NCBI GenBank assembly: GCA_021787475.1
Contig: JAJYLW010000002.1
Coordinates: forward strand, 1-56,248
From: Actinomycetes bacterium
GTDB lineage: Bacteria > Actinomycetota > Thermoleophilia > BMS3ABIN01
Direction of reading: 5' to 3'
DNA: 56,248 nt
Shown: one piece after another, positions 2,551 to 56,248 of the stretch
How positions within the stretch are numbered: the first letter of the stretch is position 1
How the letters are laid out: every line of letters starts with the position of its first letter
Notes under the pieces: generated by a model
What the model was told of the DNA's origin: nothing
What the model saw: only the letters and a program-made list of their open reading frames with translations
Databases searched by the model: none
Made by a program: the position numbers and the translations under genes

Positions 2551-3525
2551 TTACCCATAGCCATTGGGATGACGCCGGCGCCATTCCCAGGCGCTGGCAA
2601 TGATCTCCTCCAGTTGCGGGTGTTTTGGGCGCCAGCCAAGCTCTGCCGAAATCCGGGCGGAGCTGGCCACCAGCCGCGCCGGGTCGCCGGCGCGCCGGCC
2701 GGATTCTTTCACTTTAATATCGCTGCCGGTTACCCGCCGGGCTGCCTCAATCACTTCCCGGACCGAGTACCCCCTGCCGTTGCCAAGATTGTAGTGCAGG
2801 TTTTCATCTCTCAGGCGCTCCAGAGCGATTAAATGTGCTTCAACCAAATCGGCAACGTGGATGTAGTCGCGGATGCACGTGCCATCAGGGGTTGGATAGT
2901 CGCAGCCGTAAATCTCTACGTGCGGGCGCCGTCCCAATGCCGCCTGCAAAACCAGGGGAACGAGGTGGCTTTCGGGGTGGTGTTCTTCCCCGTGCTCAGG
3001 CGTGGCGCCGGCGGCGTTAAAGTACCGTAGCGCCGCGTGCTTGATCCCGTATATCTCGTCATACCAGTCAAGCATTTGCTCAAAAAAAAGCTTTGTCTGA
3101 CCGTAGCAGTTTGCCGGCTGCAACGGATGATCTTCGTTGATGAAATCTGACTGCGGATTGCCATAGATGGCGGCGGTCGATGAGAAGATGATCCTGCTGA
3201 CGCCGGCCACAGCCATTGCCTCCAGAAGCTCCAGGGGGCGGCAGTCGTTATTGCGGAAATATTTGCCGGGGTCCGCCATCGACTCGCCCGCCTCGATATA
3301 GCCGGCCATGTGAACAACGGCCTCGGCGCCCGAATACCTGAGCGCCTTCAGGACCAGATCGGCGTCGCCAACATCGCCGGCGACAAGCTTTGCCTGAGGA
3401 GGGACCGCCTGCCGGTGCCCGGTACTGAGGTTGTCATACACCGTCACCTCATGACCGGCCTGAAGGCAGGCCTCAGCCAGGACGCTGCCGATGTAGCCGG
3501 CTCCACCTGTGATCAGTAGCTTCAT
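2551..3525 (-). CDS. galE: UDP-glucose 4-epimerase
   Basis: Extended short-chain dehydrogenase/reductase of 324 residues, expected to interconvert UDP-glucose and UDP-galactose (or N-acetyl forms) with bound NAD. The N-terminal Rossmann motif GGAGYIGS is at residues 7-14. The catalytic set is visible as SSTAAIYG (Ser) and YGQTK (Tyr...Lys), followed by the family signature RYFNAAGA. The C terminus ends in HPNGYG, common in bacterial GalE. It probably supplies sugar nucleotides for the envelope glycan genes located at 4.4-8.2 kb and 28.5 kb, although it is not in one operon with them. A second, more divergent epimerase lies at 28500-29420. Confidence 0.93.
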   Translation of the reverse strand: MKLLITGGAGYIGSVLAEACLQAGHEVTVYDNLSTGHRQAVPPQAKLVAGDVGDADLVLKALRYSGAEAVVHMAGYIEAGESMADPGKYFRNNDCRPLELLEAMAVAGVSRIIFSSTAAIYGNPQSDFINEDHPLQPANCYGQTKLFFEQMLDWYDEIYGIKHAALRYFNAAGATPEHGEEHHPESHLVPLVLQAALGRRPHVEIYGCDYPTPDGTCIRDYIHVADLVEAHLIALERLRDENLHYNLGNGRGYSVREVIEAARRVTGSDIKVKESGRRAGDPARLVASSARISAELGWRPKHPQLEEIIASAWEWRRRHPNGYG

Positions 3526-3652
3526 TCAACCTGGGATAATACAACATAAACCTGTTTTATTAAAAAATCCCAACCTTCACTTTGAAAAGGGGAGTATTAG
3601 CGGGGTGATCCAGAATCCGGCGTCTGGCATCCGGCATCAGGTTTGCTTTTGT

Positions 3653-9460: not shown

Positions 9461-10626
9461 TAATCCCGCGCCCCGTTGGCCCGGTCGCCTGCAGAAATGG
9501 CGGCCACCGCCTCGACGGCGGTATCGATGTCGGCCTGGCTGTTAAAGGGGCCGATGCTCAAGCGGACGGCGCCGCCGGCCAGCGTGCCCATCACCCGGTG
9601 GGCGCCGGGCGCGCAGTGGAGCCCGGCGCGGCTGGCGATATCAAATTCGCGGTCCAGCCGGGCGGCCACCTCGGCTGCCGTCAACCCGCCCACGTTAAAG
9701 CAAACCAGCGGCGCCCGCGACTCGCCAGCGGCAGGGCCATATGCGGATACATTTTCCAGCCTGCTTAAACCGGTTAACAGCCTTGAAACCATCTCATCCT
9801 TGTGTGCCGCTATCTTTCCCAGCCCTTCCTGCCGGAGAAAATCAATTCCCGCTCCCAGGCCGGCAATGCCCGGCGTATTAAGGGTGCCGCTCTCATACCG
9901 GTCCGGCCGCGCCAGGATTTCCTGCTCGTCCTCCGACCTTGTGCCTGTCCCACCCTGCCGCACCGACATAAGCTCAATTTCCGGAGAAATGTAAAGGAGG
10001 CCGACACCCTGCGGACCCATCAATCCTTTGTGTCCCGTGATCGCGATCATGTCCGCCGGCACGGATTCAACGTCAAGCGCGAGCGAGCCGCCGCTTTGAG
10101 CCGCATCGACAAGCAGTGGCACCCCCCGCTCCCGAAGCGCAGGTGATATTGCCTTGAGCGGCGCAATCGCACCGCTGACGTTGGAGGTATGGGCAAGGGC
10201 AACAAGGCGTGTGCCGGGGCCGGCCAGAGCCAGCACTTCTTCCGGGTCGATCCGCCCGCGCGAATCGGCGCCGGCGAAGGAAACCTCGACGCCGCGACGC
10301 GCCAGCGCCTTAAGCGGCCTTATGACCGCGTTATGCTCAACAACGGAAGTGACAACATGATCTCCAGGCTTAAGCAGGCCGTGAAGAGCCATGTTGAGGG
10401 AGTCGGTTGCGTTCTGCGTGAAAACAATATTGGCGCTGTCATTGACCCCCAGAAGGGAAGCTGCCTTTTCACGCGTCTGAAAAATGACGCGGGCCGCCGC
10501 CACTGCCAGCCTGTGCGCGCCCCTGCCGGGATTGGCGCAGTAGTTCTTCAGGCAGTCATTTACCGCCTCGGGCACTGCCGGCGGCTTGGGGCAGGAACTG
10601 GCGGCGTTGTCAAGATAAATTGTCAT
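9460..10626 (-). CDS. Class V aminotransferase fold cysteine desulfurase family protein
   Basis: PLP-dependent enzyme of 388 residues, predicted to release sulfur (or selenium) from cysteine. Visible features: start TIYLDNAASSCPKP, the PLP-lysine segment ITGHKGLMGPQG (about residue 200), the RYESGTLNTPG motif and the active-site cysteine in SRAGLHCAPGAHR near residue 345. The short loop with AGLHCAP and the HKGL lysine resemble the EF2568-type family (TIGR01977) more than housekeeping IscS. It overlaps the upstream small membrane protein gene by 4 bp and the downstream MetE-like gene by 1 bp, so three genes are probably co-translated and may share sulfur-amino-acid chemistry. Confidence 0.85.
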   Translation of the reverse strand: MTIYLDNAASSCPKPPAVPEAVNDCLKNYCANPGRGAHRLAVAAARVIFQTREKAASLLGVNDSANIVFTQNATDSLNMALHGLLKPGDHVVTSVVEHNAVIRPLKALARRGVEVSFAGADSRGRIDPEEVLALAGPGTRLVALAHTSNVSGAIAPLKAISPALRERGVPLLVDAAQSGGSLALDVESVPADMIAITGHKGLMGPQGVGLLYISPEIELMSVRQGGTGTRSEDEQEILARPDRYESGTLNTPGIAGLGAGIDFLRQEGLGKIAAHKDEMVSRLLTGLSRLENVSAYGPAAGESRAPLVCFNVGGLTAAEVAARLDREFDIASRAGLHCAPGAHRVMGTLAGGAVRLSIGPFNSQADIDTAVEAVAAISAGDRANGARD

Positions 10627-46456: not shown

Positions 46457-47260
46457 TTAATCCAAATCGTATTTTCTCAAGCTCCGATTTAGCTCTCGCA
46501 ATACCTCCGCCAAATGGGGCAGCTCCTTAATCTGATGTTCCAGGCGGGTCTCCCACATTCGGGCGTATTTATCTTTCTTGTCATTCAAGCTTCCTCTTAA
46601 TTTCTCAGGATCAATCCCTTTGAACTCTGCTTTCTCACGGAAAGCATCTGGGATTTTGTGAAAATCGATATCACTTACGCCGAAAAGATAATTTACGTCG
46701 TAAATATCCCGCGGTTCGGTTCTGCCAATAATGGCGCAGAGCTTTTCGACGAGGATCTCTTCCAAAGAATAAGTGGCGAAACTCTTTTGAACCGCATTAC
46801 TATACAGCGAATGAATTTCTTTGGCTTCAATTGGAAAGATCAATTTTTCGGAAAGCGTGAAATCGACCTTGATGCTCCTGCTTCCAAGTCTTGCTTGAAG
46901 CGGACCGACAAAGTCCATATACACCGTCAGACTTTCAGTGCGTTCTTCGATTTTCTCGGCTGGAATATCGAATTGAAACCCTTGCTCCTTGCCCAGCGTT
47001 TCTAATGTCTTATTCAGTCGAGTAATTAAATCATCGTTGGCAATTTCTTTCCTTAAGGTGAAGTCCAGGTCTTCTGAGTAGCGATAATCCGGGAAATAGA
47101 TTTTCTTTAAAGCGGTGCCGCCTTTGAAAACAAGAAAATCTTTGAGACTTAAATCGGCCAAAGCCAGTAGAACACATGTGATAACATAGTCCTTCTCAAT
47201 GACCTTGTCGCTCATGCCCTCACGAAATGCTAATTTTGAAATCTCTGACTGTGGGATCAT
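46457..47260 (-). CDS. AbiEii-family nucleotidyltransferase toxin
   Basis: The 267-residue protein matches AbiEii/AbiGii toxins: FLVFKGGTALKKIYFPDYRYSEDLDFTL contains the GG[ST] and DxD-type nucleotidyltransferase active site, followed by IKVDFTLSEKL and a C-terminal basic helical region with IIGRTEPRDIYDV. Family members act as NTP-dependent toxins on tRNA or other RNA and give phage resistance when paired with AbiEi. It starts one base after the antitoxin gene ends, which supports an operon. Confidence 0.9.
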   Translation of the reverse strand: MIPQSEISKLAFREGMSDKVIEKDYVITCVLLALADLSLKDFLVFKGGTALKKIYFPDYRYSEDLDFTLRKEIANDDLITRLNKTLETLGKEQGFQFDIPAEKIEERTESLTVYMDFVGPLQARLGSRSIKVDFTLSEKLIFPIEAKEIHSLYSNAVQKSFATYSLEEILVEKLCAIIGRTEPRDIYDVNYLFGVSDIDFHKIPDAFREKAEFKGIDPEKLRGSLNDKKDKYARMWETRLEHQIKELPHLAEVLRELNRSLRKYDLD

Positions 47261-47261
47261 G

Positions 47262-48107
47262 CTATGTTTTCGTTATTTCAATTAATTCTTCTGGCTCGAT
47301 ATTTGCCCTCAACTTCCATGAACTTTTAAATTTGCCGGAAGCTGTAAGTGACGGATCAAGTAATACGTAGCTGCTTGTTAGTTCTTTCTTCAACCGCAAA
47401 AGCAATTCTTTGCTTCCCAACGAATATGTTTCAAGAATGAAACCGAGCCTTTTGATGACACTTTTTTTGCCATATCTCTTCGCATAATTAATGAGTTTCT
47501 GATAATCAATTTCATTTTGCTTTGCCCATATTCCTTTGGCCACTTCGCTTACGCCACCGCAAAGGTCAGGCCGGTCAAGGCAATCGATGATGGTTCTTTC
47601 GAGATCACTGAATTTGACCTGTTGGGTTCTAGTGGCCCAAACATCTTCGATGCCCCATAAATCTTCGGGCTTTGTAAAAACGAACTGAAAAGTTGCGCCG
47701 AGGACTCGCTTTGGGATTCTCCTGATGGGTGTGCTGATGTAAACAGTCAGTGCCGGTTGTGTGAGCATCTCGTGGACGTCCAGGGCACTGTAATGGGACA
47801 GGTAGTAAGGCTTGGGCTCAATAAGGTTCTTGGCTATAACGAACCAGTCTTCGGTGTGTTCTCCCCGCTCACCAGCCTCTAGTGGAATAATGAGATATTT
47901 GCCTTGAACTAGCCTGATAAGCCATTTCTTTTTGACCAGGCCGCTGACCAGAGAATGGACTGCAGGTAGGGGACTGCCTGTCACCGCCTGAGCATCCTTA
48001 ACGGTAAAAATCAGTTTATTTTGCGATGCCAAAGAAGCAAGGAGCCTTGCTTCGACCTCTCCCAGCGCTTTTGAGTATTTACGCATAAAATCATCTTTTA
48101 TGTACAT
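47262..48107 (-). CDS. AbiEi-family antitoxin / transcriptional regulator
   Basis: The 281-residue protein has an N-terminal winged helix (KLIFTVKDAQAVTGSPLPAVHSLVSGLVKKKWLIRLVQGKYLIIPL) and the AbiEi core (YYLSHYSALDVHEMLTQP, VKFSDLERTIIDCLDRP). AbiEi proteins neutralise AbiEii and bind inverted repeats in their own promoter. A good promoter lies just upstream at 48128-48156. The pair forms a type IV toxin-antitoxin system. The GC content is visibly lower than in the housekeeping blocks, consistent with transfer. Confidence 0.88.
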   Translation of the reverse strand: MYIKDDFMRKYSKALGEVEARLLASLASQNKLIFTVKDAQAVTGSPLPAVHSLVSGLVKKKWLIRLVQGKYLIIPLEAGERGEHTEDWFVIAKNLIEPKPYYLSHYSALDVHEMLTQPALTVYISTPIRRIPKRVLGATFQFVFTKPEDLWGIEDVWATRTQQVKFSDLERTIIDCLDRPDLCGGVSEVAKGIWAKQNEIDYQKLINYAKRYGKKSVIKRLGFILETYSLGSKELLLRLKKELTSSYVLLDPSLTASGKFKSSWKLRANIEPEELIEITKT

Positions 48108-48504: not shown

Positions 48505-48807
48505 CCTATTTTACATCAGATCAAGACGCTCGCGAAGAAGATTTCTGAATAGCCTCTCAGAGTGGCTAGAGAATCGTCTGAAACCTGGGCGTCCAGCTTC
48601 TGGACTCGGTCGTGATCGCGGCTGGCGGGAAGGTTCGGAGCGTCGCGCGGTATAGCGCACAAGGCACAGTCTCACGTAGAGATTGTGCCGTTCTCTTCTC
48701 GTCACAAAGATAACCAATCTATGTCCAACGGGAGATATGCTGTTGACAGAGACGAAATTGAATAACAGACTTTTTCTCCTTTTAGCCGTTTAACAACTGC
48801 CACAACC
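48505..48807. other. Gene-free stretch before the membrane protein
   Basis: No convincing ORF is present. A hairpin with 11-bp arms, GGCACAGTCTC and GAGATTGTGCC, is at 48663-48689 and followed by a pyrimidine-rich tail, so it could be a terminator or part of a small RNA. Confidence 0.4.
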
Positions 48808-50541: not shown

Positions 50542-50942
50542 TTCCTACCTCCTGATTTTTAGAAAAGAATAAGGGAGAGGACGAATGTGACCGCATAGTT
50601 TTACAAGGAACGAAGTCAGATCGAAAATACCACAATACATCTTCTATGTTAACCATTATTTTTAAATGCGTCTTACAATTGAAGACAAAGGTCCGTCCCA
50701 TATATTTCACTGCATGAAAGAAGAATTTCAAAATCAGTGTCCCATCTGCTATCTAGAACCAATTCAATCTGTGCAATTATTGGAAAATTAAATTAGGCGT
50801 CGACAAAATTGAAATCTCTAAAACTGGGAATGACATTAGGCGACACCGACGAGATCGTCGGTTTTTATTTGCCAGAAGAGGACAGATCAACCCACAAAGT
50901 TATCGATGATTGTGCGAGGAATGCGGCCTGACACGGAACTTC
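50542..50942. other. AT-rich intergenic stretch with an orphan terminator
   Basis: No supported gene. A terminator CCGACG-AGAT-CGTCGG followed by TTTTTATTT (50846-50870) faces right, but no plus-strand gene lies upstream of it, so a short untranslated transcript from about 50740 is possible. Confidence 0.45.
50846..50870 (+). terminator. Rho-independent terminator without an evident gene
   Basis: Six-base-pair GC stem (CCGACG/CGTCGG), loop AGAT and a T-rich tail TTTTTATTT. Only minus-strand genes flank it. Confidence 0.65.
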
Positions 50943-52701: not shown

Positions 52702-53676
52702 TCACCCCGGCAAAGAATCTGCTTCCGTCAAAAACCTGCATAGAGTTAAACATTCCCAGATGGCGCAAAGCAGTTTTCGCATCACGGCAACTATGGCCTG
52801 AAGCGGTTTCTTGTCCGCGTCAAGCAAATGGTCATAATATGCGCCTACGTGCGTTTCCCGCCTGATGGCAACAATCGCGGGCATGTATAAAGCTTTCCTT
52901 AGGTGGCCATTGCCAGCCTTGCTGATTCTGACCCGTTTGTGGACCGAAGCTCCTGAATCAAAATGTCTGGGGTCAAGACCGGCATGGGCAGTCCACTGGC
53001 GTTTGTCCATGCCATCCGGCAGCACTGAAAGCTCACCCAGGATCTGGATGGCGCTGATGCGGGCGATTCCAGTAACGGAGACGAGAAAGTCATACTTCTG
53101 GCCCAGACCAGCGTCTTCACGAATCAGCTTCACTGCCCTTTGGCGTAAAAGCTCGATCCGCTTTTCCAGGAAGCGGATATGGATCTTGATGTCACCCGCC
53201 GTTTCGCCTGTCTGAGTGGCATTGTCGGCATGCAGCCGGTTCTTCTCCGCCGTCATCAATTTACCGAGGGCCGCGATACGCCTGCTGATGCCCCTGAGCT
53301 TGAGGGCAGCCGCCGAACAAGGAACGTACGGCACGAAGGGCATGCGAGCCGCATGTTCGGCCAGAACCACAGCATCGAGGGCATCCGTCTTGGACCGGCT
53401 CATCATTGCGCCGGCAAAGTCTTTTACCGCCCTGGGGTTTGCTACCATTACCTCGATATTTTTGGCTTGGCTTAAGGCAATCGCAACGTCTAGGCTGTAG
53501 ATGCCTGTTGCCTCCAGGCAGACCCTAACCGGTGTATTGTTCCTGGTGAGATTCTTGATAAGTGCTTTGTGTCCGCGCCGGTCGTTGGCGAAAATCTTTA
53601 GTTCCGGTTCGCACAGTCGCGCCACCACCAGCTCCCTCGCGCTTACGTCGATCCCAGCAAAAACAACCTTAGACAT
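52702..53676 (-). CDS. IS110-family transposase (DEDD recombinase)
   Basis: The 324-residue protein has the N-terminal RuvC-like domain (VVFAGIDVSARELVVA with the first Asp, VRVCLEATGIYSLDVA with Glu, SRSKTDALDAVVLAEHA with the DxxD pair) and the C-terminal Tnp domain (FLVSVTGIARISAIQIL, WTAHAGLDPRHFDSGASVHKRVRISKAGNGHLRKALYMPA with the catalytic Ser area). IS110 elements move as circles, without terminal inverted repeats, guided by a structured bridge RNA from the non-coding end. GAGGAGG precedes the ATG. The length is slightly short for the family but all key motifs are present. Confidence 0.93.
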   Translation of the reverse strand: MSKVVFAGIDVSARELVVARLCEPELKIFANDRRGHKALIKNLTRNNTPVRVCLEATGIYSLDVAIALSQAKNIEVMVANPRAVKDFAGAMMSRSKTDALDAVVLAEHAARMPFVPYVPCSAAALKLRGISRRIAALGKLMTAEKNRLHADNATQTGETAGDIKIHIRFLEKRIELLRQRAVKLIREDAGLGQKYDFLVSVTGIARISAIQILGELSVLPDGMDKRQWTAHAGLDPRHFDSGASVHKRVRISKAGNGHLRKALYMPAIVAIRRETHVGAYYDHLLDADKKPLQAIVAVMRKLLCAIWECLTLCRFLTEADSLPG

Positions 53677-53711
53677 TCTTACCTCCTCGTGCTATCTTTT
53701 TTAGTCCGGTT

Positions 53712-53799
53712 CCCCGGCTCCGGCAAACGCCTACCGACCTTGTGTATGCAGGCTCTTACGGCCTCGGATACTCCTCGGCATAGACGAATAGAGCCGGGG
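53712..53799 (-). ncRNA. Candidate IS110 bridge-RNA region
   Basis: The 5' non-coding segment of the IS110 element contains a 9-bp perfect inverted repeat, CCCCGGCTC (53712-53720) with GAGCCGGGG (53791-53799), enclosing 70 bases with further short hairpins (for example CCTCGG repeated at 53762 and 53773). In IS110-type elements the bridge RNA is encoded upstream of the transposase. Identification is by position and fold only. Confidence 0.45.
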
Positions 53800-53909
53800 G
53801 GCCGATCTTTTATTGCAAGCTCGCGGCTTTAGGGGAAATTCGGCCTCCCCGGACTACTTCAAAGAGGAAGCTATCTCAATTTCCTTTTCAAAGCATTTAA
53901 AAAATACAA

Positions 53910-54107
53910 GGGGAATTAAGGCGACCGCAGGGAGCCGTCGTCTGGGCGATAGCCCAGGCTTCCCGTCGTTTCGCCGAGAGACAACGGAGCGAGGGAAACC
54001 GCAGGTCGAAATGGTGGGAAGTCGGGGCTCATTTTGACCTACAAAATGAGACCAGACAACGCTGGCTCCGATGTGGCTAGATGCCGCTCGGAGACAGTTA
54101 ATTCCCC
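53910..54107 (+). ncRNA. Strongly folded ~200-nt non-coding element of unknown class
   Basis: Closed by a perfect 10-bp stem, GGGGAATTAA (53910-53919) and TTAATTCCCC (54098-54107). Inside lie GGCGA/TCGCC (53920/53971), hairpin CTGGGC-GATA-GCCCAG (53942-53957), CTCATTTTG/CAAAATGAG (54028-54050), CCAG/CTGG (54052-54065) and CTCCGA-GTGGC/GCCGC-TCGGAG (54066-54093). ACCGCAGG occurs twice (53924 and 53998). The strand is not certain. No gene is visible inside. Confidence 0.55.
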
Positions 54108-54151
54108 TTTTGGTTTTGCTTTGTTTTCAAGGGTTTTGCCTCTTTCAATAT

Positions 54152-54294
54152 GGTCTTACAACTGATTGTAAGTACCAGTGTAAGACCCTGTCCGCTGATT
54201 TTTGGGTCTTTAAATCGGGCCTTGATCTGAGATCAATAGGCGTTTCAATACCTTGGCGTTAATAGGCCTGGGTATTAATACGTAGTTAATAGGC
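54152..54294. repeat. Inverted repeats and three spaced TAATAGGC-type repeats
   Basis: GGTCTTACA (54152-54160) is mirrored at 54179-54187 (TGTAAGACC), and a second TGTAAG at 54167 allows an alternative hairpin. Downstream, CAATAGGC/TAATAGGC boxes occur at 54233-54241, 54259-54267 and 54286-54294, 26 and 27 bases apart. The layout is like iterons or recombinase binding sites. Confidence 0.5.
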
Positions 54295-54358
54295 AGATTA
54301 AGAGGCTGGCGGTTCTCGGGTTTTCCACACATTGCCGACAGGTTCGTAAAAAATACCA

Positions 54359-54441: not shown

Positions 54442-54696
54442 ATGTTGGGTAGAACCACTCAAACAATGACCGTCTCTCTTCCTCCGGAGATCATGAAAGA
54501 GGTCGAGCGGCGGGCAAGGATCGAAAGAAAAAGCAAGAGCCAGCTATTCAGGGATATGTTTACCGTTTATGAAGAGATGCAACGGGAAAGGCGCTGGCAG
54601 AACGCAAGACAGGCTGGCAGGCGGGCATTTAAACGGCTCAATATTACATCAGAGGAAGAACTCGACCGGATTCTACACGAGGTTAGGGGTGAATAA
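54442..54696 (+). CDS. Ribbon-helix-helix antitoxin
   Basis: The 84-residue protein reads QTMTVSLPPEIMKEVERRARIERKSKSQLFRDMFTVY, the CopG/ParD-like RHH fold, followed by a helical C-terminal tail (RRWQNARQAGRRAFKRLNITSEEELDRILHEV) that should mask the toxin. ATG at 54442 follows AGGAGG at five bases; a GTG six bases earlier is less likely. The gene overlaps the PIN toxin start by eight bases. The palindrome at 54397-54413 is a likely autoregulatory site. Confidence 0.9.
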   Translation: MLGRTTQTMTVSLPPEIMKEVERRARIERKSKSQLFRDMFTVYEEMQRERRWQNARQAGRRAFKRLNITSEEELDRILHEVRGE

Positions 54697-55105
54697 GGCC
54701 GTCTTCGATACCAATGTTTACGTATCGGCACTTGGTTTCGGAGGTCTCCCGGAGCATCTGTTGAGACTTGCCACCGGACCGGGGAGACAATTTGAACTCT
54801 ATGCCTCGCCTGATATCCTCAAAGAGATAATAAAGGTCCTGGGCTCTGAAAAGTTCAATTTCAGCCAAGAAGAGATCGCTGACGCCATTTCCGTCATTGA
54901 CGATGCGGCGGATGTCATTATTCCGGGAATCAAGCTGAACATCATCAAACACAAGCCCGATAACCGCATCCTCGAATGCGCCATCAAAGCCAAAGCCGAC
55001 TATATTGTTTCAGGGGACAAGCACCTGCGCACCCTAAAAGAATATAAAGGGATCCGCTCTATTACCCCCGCTCAGTTCCTCGCTTTGCTCGAAAAAGAGC
55101 GATAA
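54689..55105 (+). CDS. PIN-domain toxin (COG1569-type ribonuclease)
   Basis: The 138-residue protein starts VNKAVFDTNVYVSALGFGGLPEHLLRLA, with the first catalytic Asp in FDTNV. ELYASPDILKEIIKVL carries Asp/Glu, and HKPDNRILECAIKAKADYIVSGDKHLRTL contains DNRILECA and the last Asp pair (SGD). These four acidic residues form the Mg2+-dependent RNase site. The start is GTG 54689, inside the antitoxin end (8-bp overlap), which gives the normal family length; the longer frame from 54569 is an artefact. Together with the RHH gene it forms a type II toxin-antitoxin system. Confidence 0.9.
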   Translation: MNKAVFDTNVYVSALGFGGLPEHLLRLATGPGRQFELYASPDILKEIIKVLGSEKFNFSQEEIADAISVIDDAADVIIPGIKLNIIKHKPDNRILECAIKAKADYIVSGDKHLRTLKEYKGIRSITPAQFLALLEKER

Positions 55106-55171: not shown

Positions 55172-55540
55172 ATGAGCATCAAAGAGATATTTGGTAAGAA
55201 AATCAAAGAGGCCCGCCTTGAAAGAGGGCTGAAACAGAGCGATATCACGAAAGCCCTAGGCTATGAATCAAAAAGCTACGTCTCTGACGTTGAAAACGGC
55301 TATTTTCTCCCCCAACCCGACAAGCTCGCCAAATGGGCCAAAGCCCTCAGTATGAGTCAGGAAGAGATGGACAGTTTGCTGGCAGACGCCAAGCTGGAGG
55401 AGATGGGGCTCACCGATCCGGGCTTCACACTCATGTTTAAGGAAGTGCCGAACATGACCGCCGAAGAGAAAGAATCGATTATCAATTCGTACAAACGAGT
55501 AATGAAGGCCAGAGAGGCCAAAGGAAAGAAAAAATCATGA
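55172..55540 (+). CDS. XRE-family DNA-binding regulator
   Basis: The 122-residue protein has an N-terminal Cro/CI helix-turn-helix (FGKKIKEARLERGLKQSDITKALGYESKSYVSDVENGYFLPQPDKLAKWAKAL), then a helical region with EEMDSLLADAKLEEMGL and a Lys-rich end. It probably controls the following recombinase, which it overlaps by four bases (ATGA). No ribosome site is visible, and a possible -10 box lies only ten bases ahead, so the message may be almost leaderless. Such pairs are usual in integrative elements. Confidence 0.88.
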   Translation: MSIKEIFGKKIKEARLERGLKQSDITKALGYESKSYVSDVENGYFLPQPDKLAKWAKALSMSQEEMDSLLADAKLEEMGLTDPGFTLMFKEVPNMTAEEKESIINSYKRVMKAREAKGKKKS

Positions 55541-56248
55541 GATGCGTCATCTACTTACGAGTTTCCACGAGAGAACAGGCCGAGGGTGGATATTCCATTC
55601 CCGCCCAGCGTGAAGCCTGCATGAAGCTGATTCGGGAGAATGATTGGGTGCTCGTTGATGAATACGCCGACAGGGGCGAATCAGCCAGATCAACTGCCCG
55701 CCCCCAACTTCAGGAAATGCTCTCAAGGATCAAGAAAAAAGACATTGACGCGGTTGTGGTTCACAAGATCGATAGACTGGCCAGAAATATGTCGGATCAC
55801 GTGGCCATCAAATCGATTCTGACGAGAGCCGGGGCGCAGTTGGTCTCAGTGGTTGAAAACATCGAAGACAGCGCCTCTGGACGCTTCATAAAAGGTATCC
55901 ACGCCCTCATGGCTGAGTTCTACTCCGCCGATCTATCGGCGTAAGTTAAAAAAGGTCTTCTTCAAAAAGCCAAGTCCGGCGGCATGATCACAAGAGCCCC
56001 GGTCGGTTACAAGAACGTCAGAGACATGATTGAAGGCAAAAGCATCGCCAGAGTAATACAAGATGAGGAGATGGCTCCGCTGGTCAGGGAATGCTTCGAT
56101 CTTTACGCCACCGGCAATTACTCCCTGGCTGAGATTCAAAAGATCATGGCCAAAAAAGGGCTACGGAATAATTTCTCCAAGAAAAGGCCATATCCTGAAT
56201 TTTGTAAATCTTCAATCGCCATGCTGCTACAAAACAGATTTTACATGG
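55537..56248 (+). pseudogene. Serine recombinase interrupted by an in-frame TAA (3' end outside the window)
   Basis: The first 135 codons encode a resolvase-type catalytic domain: VIYLRVSTREQAEGGYSIPAQREAC (nucleophile Ser in RVST), VHKIDRLARN and GRFIKGIHALMAEFYS. Then TAA (55942-55944) occurs where relatives have an acidic residue (L-S-E-E/x-V-K-K-G). The same frame continues without another stop to the window edge, with VKKGLLQKAKSGGMITRAPVGYKN and YSLAEIQKIMAKKGLRN, the recombinase DNA-binding part. One base change (GAA to TAA) explains it. Large serine recombinases integrate phages and mobile elements. Confidence 0.85.

Follow-up and report, generated by a model that had tools for sequence, protein, structure and literature searches.

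A conserved folded element in actinobacterial integrative islands is less likely a new RNA than a probable origin of island transfer or copying

The locus and the folded element

The window, which is the whole stretch of 56,248 nucleotides analyzed here, carries near its right end a compact non-coding element of about 200 nt that is closed by stem P1 (Table 1). As the first-pass annotation had placed it, the element is flanked by an IS110 copy and a CopG/PIN toxin-antitoxin pair. The + strand of 53910-54107 folds with a free energy of -99.1 kcal/mol and a z score of -6.95, and 0 of 200 shuffled sequences were as stable; the - strand of the same interval gave -88.5 kcal/mol and a z score of -5.73. 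For forty stretches of 200 nt sampled across the window, the median z score was -0.16 and the lowest -2.05, which bears out the earlier statement that the fold is denser than that of ordinary intergenic DNA. The perfect 10-bp stem described earlier (GGGGAATTAA/TTAATTCCCC) is exact and extends to 12 bp with its flanks (53908-53919/54098-54109), and the repeated 8-base motif is indeed ACCGCAGG at 53924-53931 and 53998-54005, both copies of which form CC(GCA)GG mini-hairpins. The five internal helices of the first-pass annotation are present as a local fold, but that fold is only one of two alternatives.

No conserved frame spans the element, in agreement with the earlier reading that it holds no open reading frame; the computed frames of 74 and 63 amino acids that cover it are not kept in homologues. 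It was also correct that the element does not match a known riboswitch or ribozyme, as the Rfam covariance-model search gave nothing over the element region at the gathering threshold or at E values up to 1. A blastn search against 72,556 plasmids returned at most short chance matches to the element. The same genome has a second copy on contig C33 that is 75% identical. Near this second copy, a repetitive array is found beside Cas-like genes (L102:7671-8891, or G000:C33 at about 91.7-92.9 kb), which suggests a CRISPR locus.

Table 1. Positions of the features in the window (+, forward strand; -, reverse strand;., no strand)
Feature	Position	Strand	Basis or remark
RadC gene fragment, like RadC of relaxase-bearing islands	48585..48650	+	tblastn, 77% over 22 aa
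VirD4-type coupling-protein gene fragment	50815..50895	+	tblastn, 67% over 27 aa
IS110 copy	52702..53909	-	PF01548/PF02371; ends at the foot of the element, separate from it
Structured element, closed by stem P1	53908..54109	+	z score, covariation in 23 copies, P1 complementarity
P1, 5' strand AAGGGGAATTAA	53908..53919	+	pairs with 54098-54109
P2 mini-hairpin with first ACCGCAGG, loop GCA	53922..53935	+	alignments and sequence reading
Helix X (long-range), 5' strand GCCGTCGTCTGG	53934..53945	+	RNAalifold consensus; partner 54052-54062
Hairpin H2 (local), GTCTGGGC GATA GCCCAGGC	53940..53959	+	excludes X plus Y
Long hairpin P4 with extension Y	53951..54030	+	two-sided changes
ACC(GCA)GGT mini-hairpin inside P4, second ACCGCAGG	53998..54006	+	direct sequence reading across copies
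Hairpin P5, CTCATTTTG / CAAAATGAG	54028..54050	+	reaches 54021-54057 in the local fold
Helix X, 3' strand CCAGACAACGC	54052..54062	+	RNAalifold consensus, two-sided changes
Hairpin P6	54062..54097	+	two-sided changes at 8/10 pairs
P1, 3' strand TTAATTCCCCTT	54098..54109	+	pairs with 53908-53919
Array of diverged inverted-repeat units (GGTCTTAC ... GTAAGACC type)	54136..54300	.	adjoins the element
CopG antitoxin (54442-54696) and PIN-domain toxin, same island	54442..55105	+	PF01402, PF13470
XRE-type regulator	55172..55540	+	PF01381
Large serine recombinase, runs past the window end	55537..56248	+	PF00239

Conservation of the fold and its two alternatives

About 30 copies of the element, dispersed over two classes of a single bacterial phylum, make up its family. 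The copies are found in metagenome-assembled genomes (MAGs) of subsurface actinobacteria, which include Thermoleophilia bacterium DeMMO3_11 and Gaiellales bacterium SURF_19. A search of relatives gave about 25 copies in nine genomes of the window's family; one further match of 29 bases was at chance level and was not counted as a copy. Named contigs added two copies (L113 and L115), and another class of the same phylum provided four divergent ones.

The secondary structure is strongly supported as conserved across this family, and the covariation in homologues that the first-pass annotation had proposed as a check was found. With the divergent class left out, 97.1% of the cells in an alignment of 21 copies are paired and 16 pairs have changed on both sides. 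With the divergent class included (23 copies), 97.6% of the cells are paired and 31 of 54 pairs have changed on both sides, a result that 0 of 500 shuffles and no slid version came near, in an alignment that was fitted to the model and thus leans towards the structure. P1 is perfectly complementary in all lineages over 10-15 bp (8 in one copy) and varies in both sequence and length; its 5' strand is CACCAGGGAAATTAA or TCGGGGGAGGAA in homologues, with 3' strands changed to match. P2 occurs in fully paired variants, GCTCC GTA GGAGC in L114 and GCGCCC GCA GGGCGC in L069. In the 23-copy alignment, two-sided changes are seen at 4 of 9 pairs in helix X and at 7 of 14 in the Y/P4 stem, and H2 is present in all 23 aligned copies, in a shorter form in L164.

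RNAalifold prefers helix X, which encloses P4 and P5, whereas the fold of the first-pass annotation uses H2, and the two cannot both form fully at once. In alignment A6, the partner of column 72 is column 85 when H2 forms and column 241 when X forms. In the window's family column 72 is T and both partner columns are A, and in the other class it is G and both partners are C, a triple covariation that is built on few independent events, column 85 being a gap in L164. This pattern suggests that the two helices are both conserved, as would be expected of a four-way junction able to branch-migrate. Either of two pairings is possible between two direct repeats (GTCTGG and GTCGGG) and two inverse ones (CCAGAC and CCAGAC), and deletions in L044 and L167 as well as a tandem duplication in L069 have their endpoints at these short repeats.

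The islands that carry the element

The element lies in islands that are integrative elements, in which the gene for a large serine recombinase ends in a tRNA-Pro, tRNA-Met or tmRNA gene on the side away from the element. Two types of island can be distinguished by gene order. In type B the order is recombinase, M78 peptidase, XRE regulator, element, Replic_Relax, DUF6908, RadC and then a VirD4/TraG-type ATPase. In all B-type copies read, the element is about 20-80 nt upstream of the Replic_Relax start and antisense to it. The order from recombinase to Replic_Relax and RadC is unchanged in the other class, where the relaxase is 48% identical. TraG/VirD4 domains were detected in the same island as Replic_Relax with E values of about 1e-8, and the coupling gene was not seen in every B copy because contigs end or the island has decayed. 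No mating-pore genes were recognised among the proteins scanned.

The Replic_Relax protein matches PF13814 (E value 1.5e-30), which is listed as the MOBC relaxase superfamily (PMC5357655), and a relationship between MOBC relaxases and restriction endonucleases has been described (PMC11389934). In a predicted model the confident C-terminal domain weakly resembles restriction-type nucleases (best E value 2.6e-3), a match taken as weak support, since the confidence of the whole model is low (pLDDT 55). The residues P166-D167, E184-V-D186 and K198 are invariant. Taken from Pfam, the literature and the weak fold match, the protein is predicted to be a relaxase. Intact Replic_Relax occurs in exactly the nine element-bearing genomes of the window's family, and the element is absent in both cases of a broken gene (G018, and the named contig L116, with stops). 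Additionally, A-type elements are confined to genomes that also hold a B-type element (7/7 in the window's family). These counts come from fragmented MAGs and are inflated by shared ancestry. In the distant genomes G485 and G443 the element is present and no Replic_Relax gene was found, which means that some copies do without a resident helper. Viral contigs held no relative of the relaxase.

Type A, the smaller of the two, comprises the window's island and about a dozen others, some of them partial. Its order is element, inverted-repeat array, an optional CopG/PIN pair, XRE regulator and large serine recombinase; thus recombinase, regulator and element are kept and there is no relaxase in these islands, the window's included. 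A-type recombinase genes end inside the 3' end of tRNA-Pro genes with three anticodons, and that of the window continues to a tRNA-Pro(CGG) at about G000:C5:57029. The window's recombinase frame has a TAA stop at 55942-55944, after SADLSA, where other copies read through; decay of the recombinase or an error in sequencing may account for it. The far side of the A-type element holds variable cargo, for example arsenic or zinc/cadmium genes, that is unrelated between islands and lies in both orientations. L031 is an internal-deletion derivative of about 0.5 kb that consists of the recombinase 3' end and the element.

The inverted-repeat array accompanies A-type copies, and about one unit is found beside B-type copies. 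The units (window 54136-54300 and L033:9060-9300) have interleaved inverted arms, GCCTGTTG..GGGTGTTG..CAACAGGC..CAACACCC, which appear to covary between units. Judged from its sequence, the array probably provides binding sites for the XRE regulator or the relaxosome. An AbiEi/AbiEii pair at 46463-48101 of the window is 70% and 85% identical to a pair in a B-type island of G013 and can be read as defence cargo common to the islands. Together with the RadC and VirD4 fragments, this pair makes the left flank of the window probably the remains of a B-type-like element.

Besides the inverted repeats P1-P6, the copies L162-L164 of the other class have one more inverted repeat, 9 bp long, at their 5' foot. 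This repeat (TTGACGGAA..TTCCGTCAA or ATCGCCGGA..TCCGGCGAT; L162:1720-1760, L163:540-580 and L164 near 10010-10045) surrounds the G-rich foot. As the loop of the repeat forms P1, it would make a pseudoknot, and it is possibly a nic-proximal repeat. In the Methylomagnum plasmid pRS11DPr5 (L129), a strongly folded stretch of about 185 nt (z score -6.45) was observed about 0.5 kb before a distant Replic_Relax gene; the very strong double hairpin there (3430-3540) may be the origin of that plasmid. Streptomyces and Herpetosiphon plasmids with Replic_Relax had no such folded region upstream, and the plasmids compared are too few to generalise.

Candidate functions and known systems

The first-pass annotation had offered three readings, the distal part of the IS110 end, an RNA of a mobile element and a new class of non-coding RNA. 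The IS110 reading is rejected because IS110 copies in the sister genome G002 stop at the same place with the element absent, and IS110 does not accompany the majority of element copies. Separately, G002 has two solitary pieces of about 130 bp (G002:C48:1-129 and C76:15155-15281; L126 and L123) that correspond to the upstream non-coding end of IS110, lack the transposase and are cut by contig ends; they could be MITE-like derivatives or assembly breaks. That the element itself is a MITE or a transposon terminal repeat was rejected as the main reading, since B-type islands carry it in their interior and the end with the recombinase is at tRNA genes. These same facts make any recombination (attachment) site or terminal repeat very improbable, even though similarity between A-type islands ends just outside P1 and IS110 abuts the element in the window.

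As to RNA or DNA, the 31 covarying pairs fit both a structured RNA and folded DNA. A structured non-coding RNA for island mobility or regulation would have a role comparable to the sgm-sRNA of SGI1. Covariation this strong is typical of RNAs, an essential RNA beside an oriT has precedent (PMC9299015), and on the + strand G-T mismatches (19) outnumber A-C ones (7). Against this, G-T makes up only 1.7% of the standard pairs compared with 4.6% in 41 tRNAs of the same loci, and Rfam has no match. Furthermore, in A-type copies the sequence upstream of the + strand shows no conservation beyond the stem and hence no evident shared promoter; matches to consensus promoters were not counted as evidence. 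The far-side genes of A-type islands, being unrelated and in both orientations, do not suit a cis-regulatory leader on the - strand, and a leader RNA of a single gene was rejected for the same reason.

The + strand is the one that folds better in 21 of 21 copies, and it bears the mismatches that are tolerated, with 19 G-T and 14 G-A as opposed to 7 A-C and 1 C-T. In the window's family H2 is capped by GCA, GTA or GATA, all of which are known as stable DNA loops. The strand, pairing and loop data favour folded single-stranded DNA, and none of them is decisive. The neighbouring genes, for a relaxase and a coupling protein, point to a DNA site that serves conjugative mobilization. Of the suggestion of a mobile-element RNA, membership in a mobile element stands, but RNA action is made less likely by the scarcity of G-T pairs, the lack of conserved upstream sequence and this gene context. 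As the element sits in the relaxase gene's leader, regulation of this gene through RNA is conceivable. A non-coding RNA is possible but unlikely, and less probable than a single-strand or transfer origin. A vegetative replication origin or regulatory operator of the excised island, unrelated to transfer, is more doubtful still. The element does adjoin an iteron-like inverted-repeat array, and the Replic_Relax family has been described for plasmid replication as well as relaxation (PMC3756968). However, none of the A-type units has a recognisable replication initiator, the number of iteron-like repeats varies while the element is constant, and the VirD4-type coupling genes of B-type islands suit transfer better.

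We therefore favour, with somewhat better than even confidence, a cis-acting site of a mobilization module, that is an oriT and/or a single-strand origin that would act as folded single-stranded DNA; an island origin for transfer or copying is probable rather than a new RNA. We propose that the serine recombinase would excise the island and that the Replic_Relax relaxase would nick at the element or next to it. Once displaced, the + strand would fold, and either the relaxosome would recognise it or the complementary strand would start there; oriT and single-strand origin can coincide. Type B would be an integrative mobilizable element with a relaxase (iMOB), and type A, including the window's relaxase-less island, would be an iOriT that is mobilized by the products of type-B islands. 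What the sequences show is the conserved structure, its place beside the relaxase gene, integration at tRNA genes and the presence of both island types within one family; nicking, transfer and single-stranded DNA as the active form we infer. A more tentative proposal, which we hold to be rather unlikely as it stands, is that the relaxase reads the transfer origin as a folded, branch-migrating four-way DNA junction and that relaxase-less islands keep the structure in order to hitch on a resident relaxase.

Few transfer origins have been described for MOBC elements or for genomic islands that lack a relaxase, particularly from uncultured lineages. A covariance model of the element detects such islands independently of any protein and ties islands of subsurface actinobacteria with metal-resistance and defence cargo to their likely helpers. 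If both alternative folds are functional, the element would be a natural origin that uses a mobile four-way junction.

A folded single strand that acts in conjugation is known from Frpo of the F plasmid and other single-stranded DNA promoters, although the gene context of Frpo is unlike that of the element. The sgm-sRNA of Salmonella genomic island 1 is a processed transcript required for transfer (PMC9299015). The element is likewise non-coding and adjoins the mobilization genes of a genomic island, but it is known from sequence alone and not as a processed transcript. The terms iOriT and iMOB are used for integrative mobilizable elements (PMC11389934). The islands described here are similar in that their oriT-like site occurs either with a relaxase gene or on its own, and they would likewise depend on helpers; they differ in that the helper relation is read from sequence. 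In ICEBs1, sso1 is about 200 nt long, lies beside the relaxase gene nicK and has three stem-loops, and structure counts more than sequence for sso function (PMC4595007). The 198-nt element resembles it in size, in its place beside a relaxase gene, in the several stem-loops to be expected in single-stranded DNA and in conserving structure over sequence. It differs from sso1 as a closed multi-branched fold with alternative helices that lies before the relaxase gene in another host phylum, and no sequence similarity to known sso was found by blastn against the 72,556 plasmids. Compared with the oriTs of MOBC (PF13814) elements such as IME_Class_8 and CloDF13, the element is different in its length of about 200 nt and its conserved multi-helix fold, and no sequence match to a known oriT was found. 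It is similar to them in being non-coding, in having inverted repeats and in adjoining the relaxase gene, which the window's own island lacks. Streptococcal IME_Class_8 elements encode a serine integrase, a PF13814 relaxase and a VirD4 coupling protein (PMC5357655), the same gene set that is found in the B-type islands.
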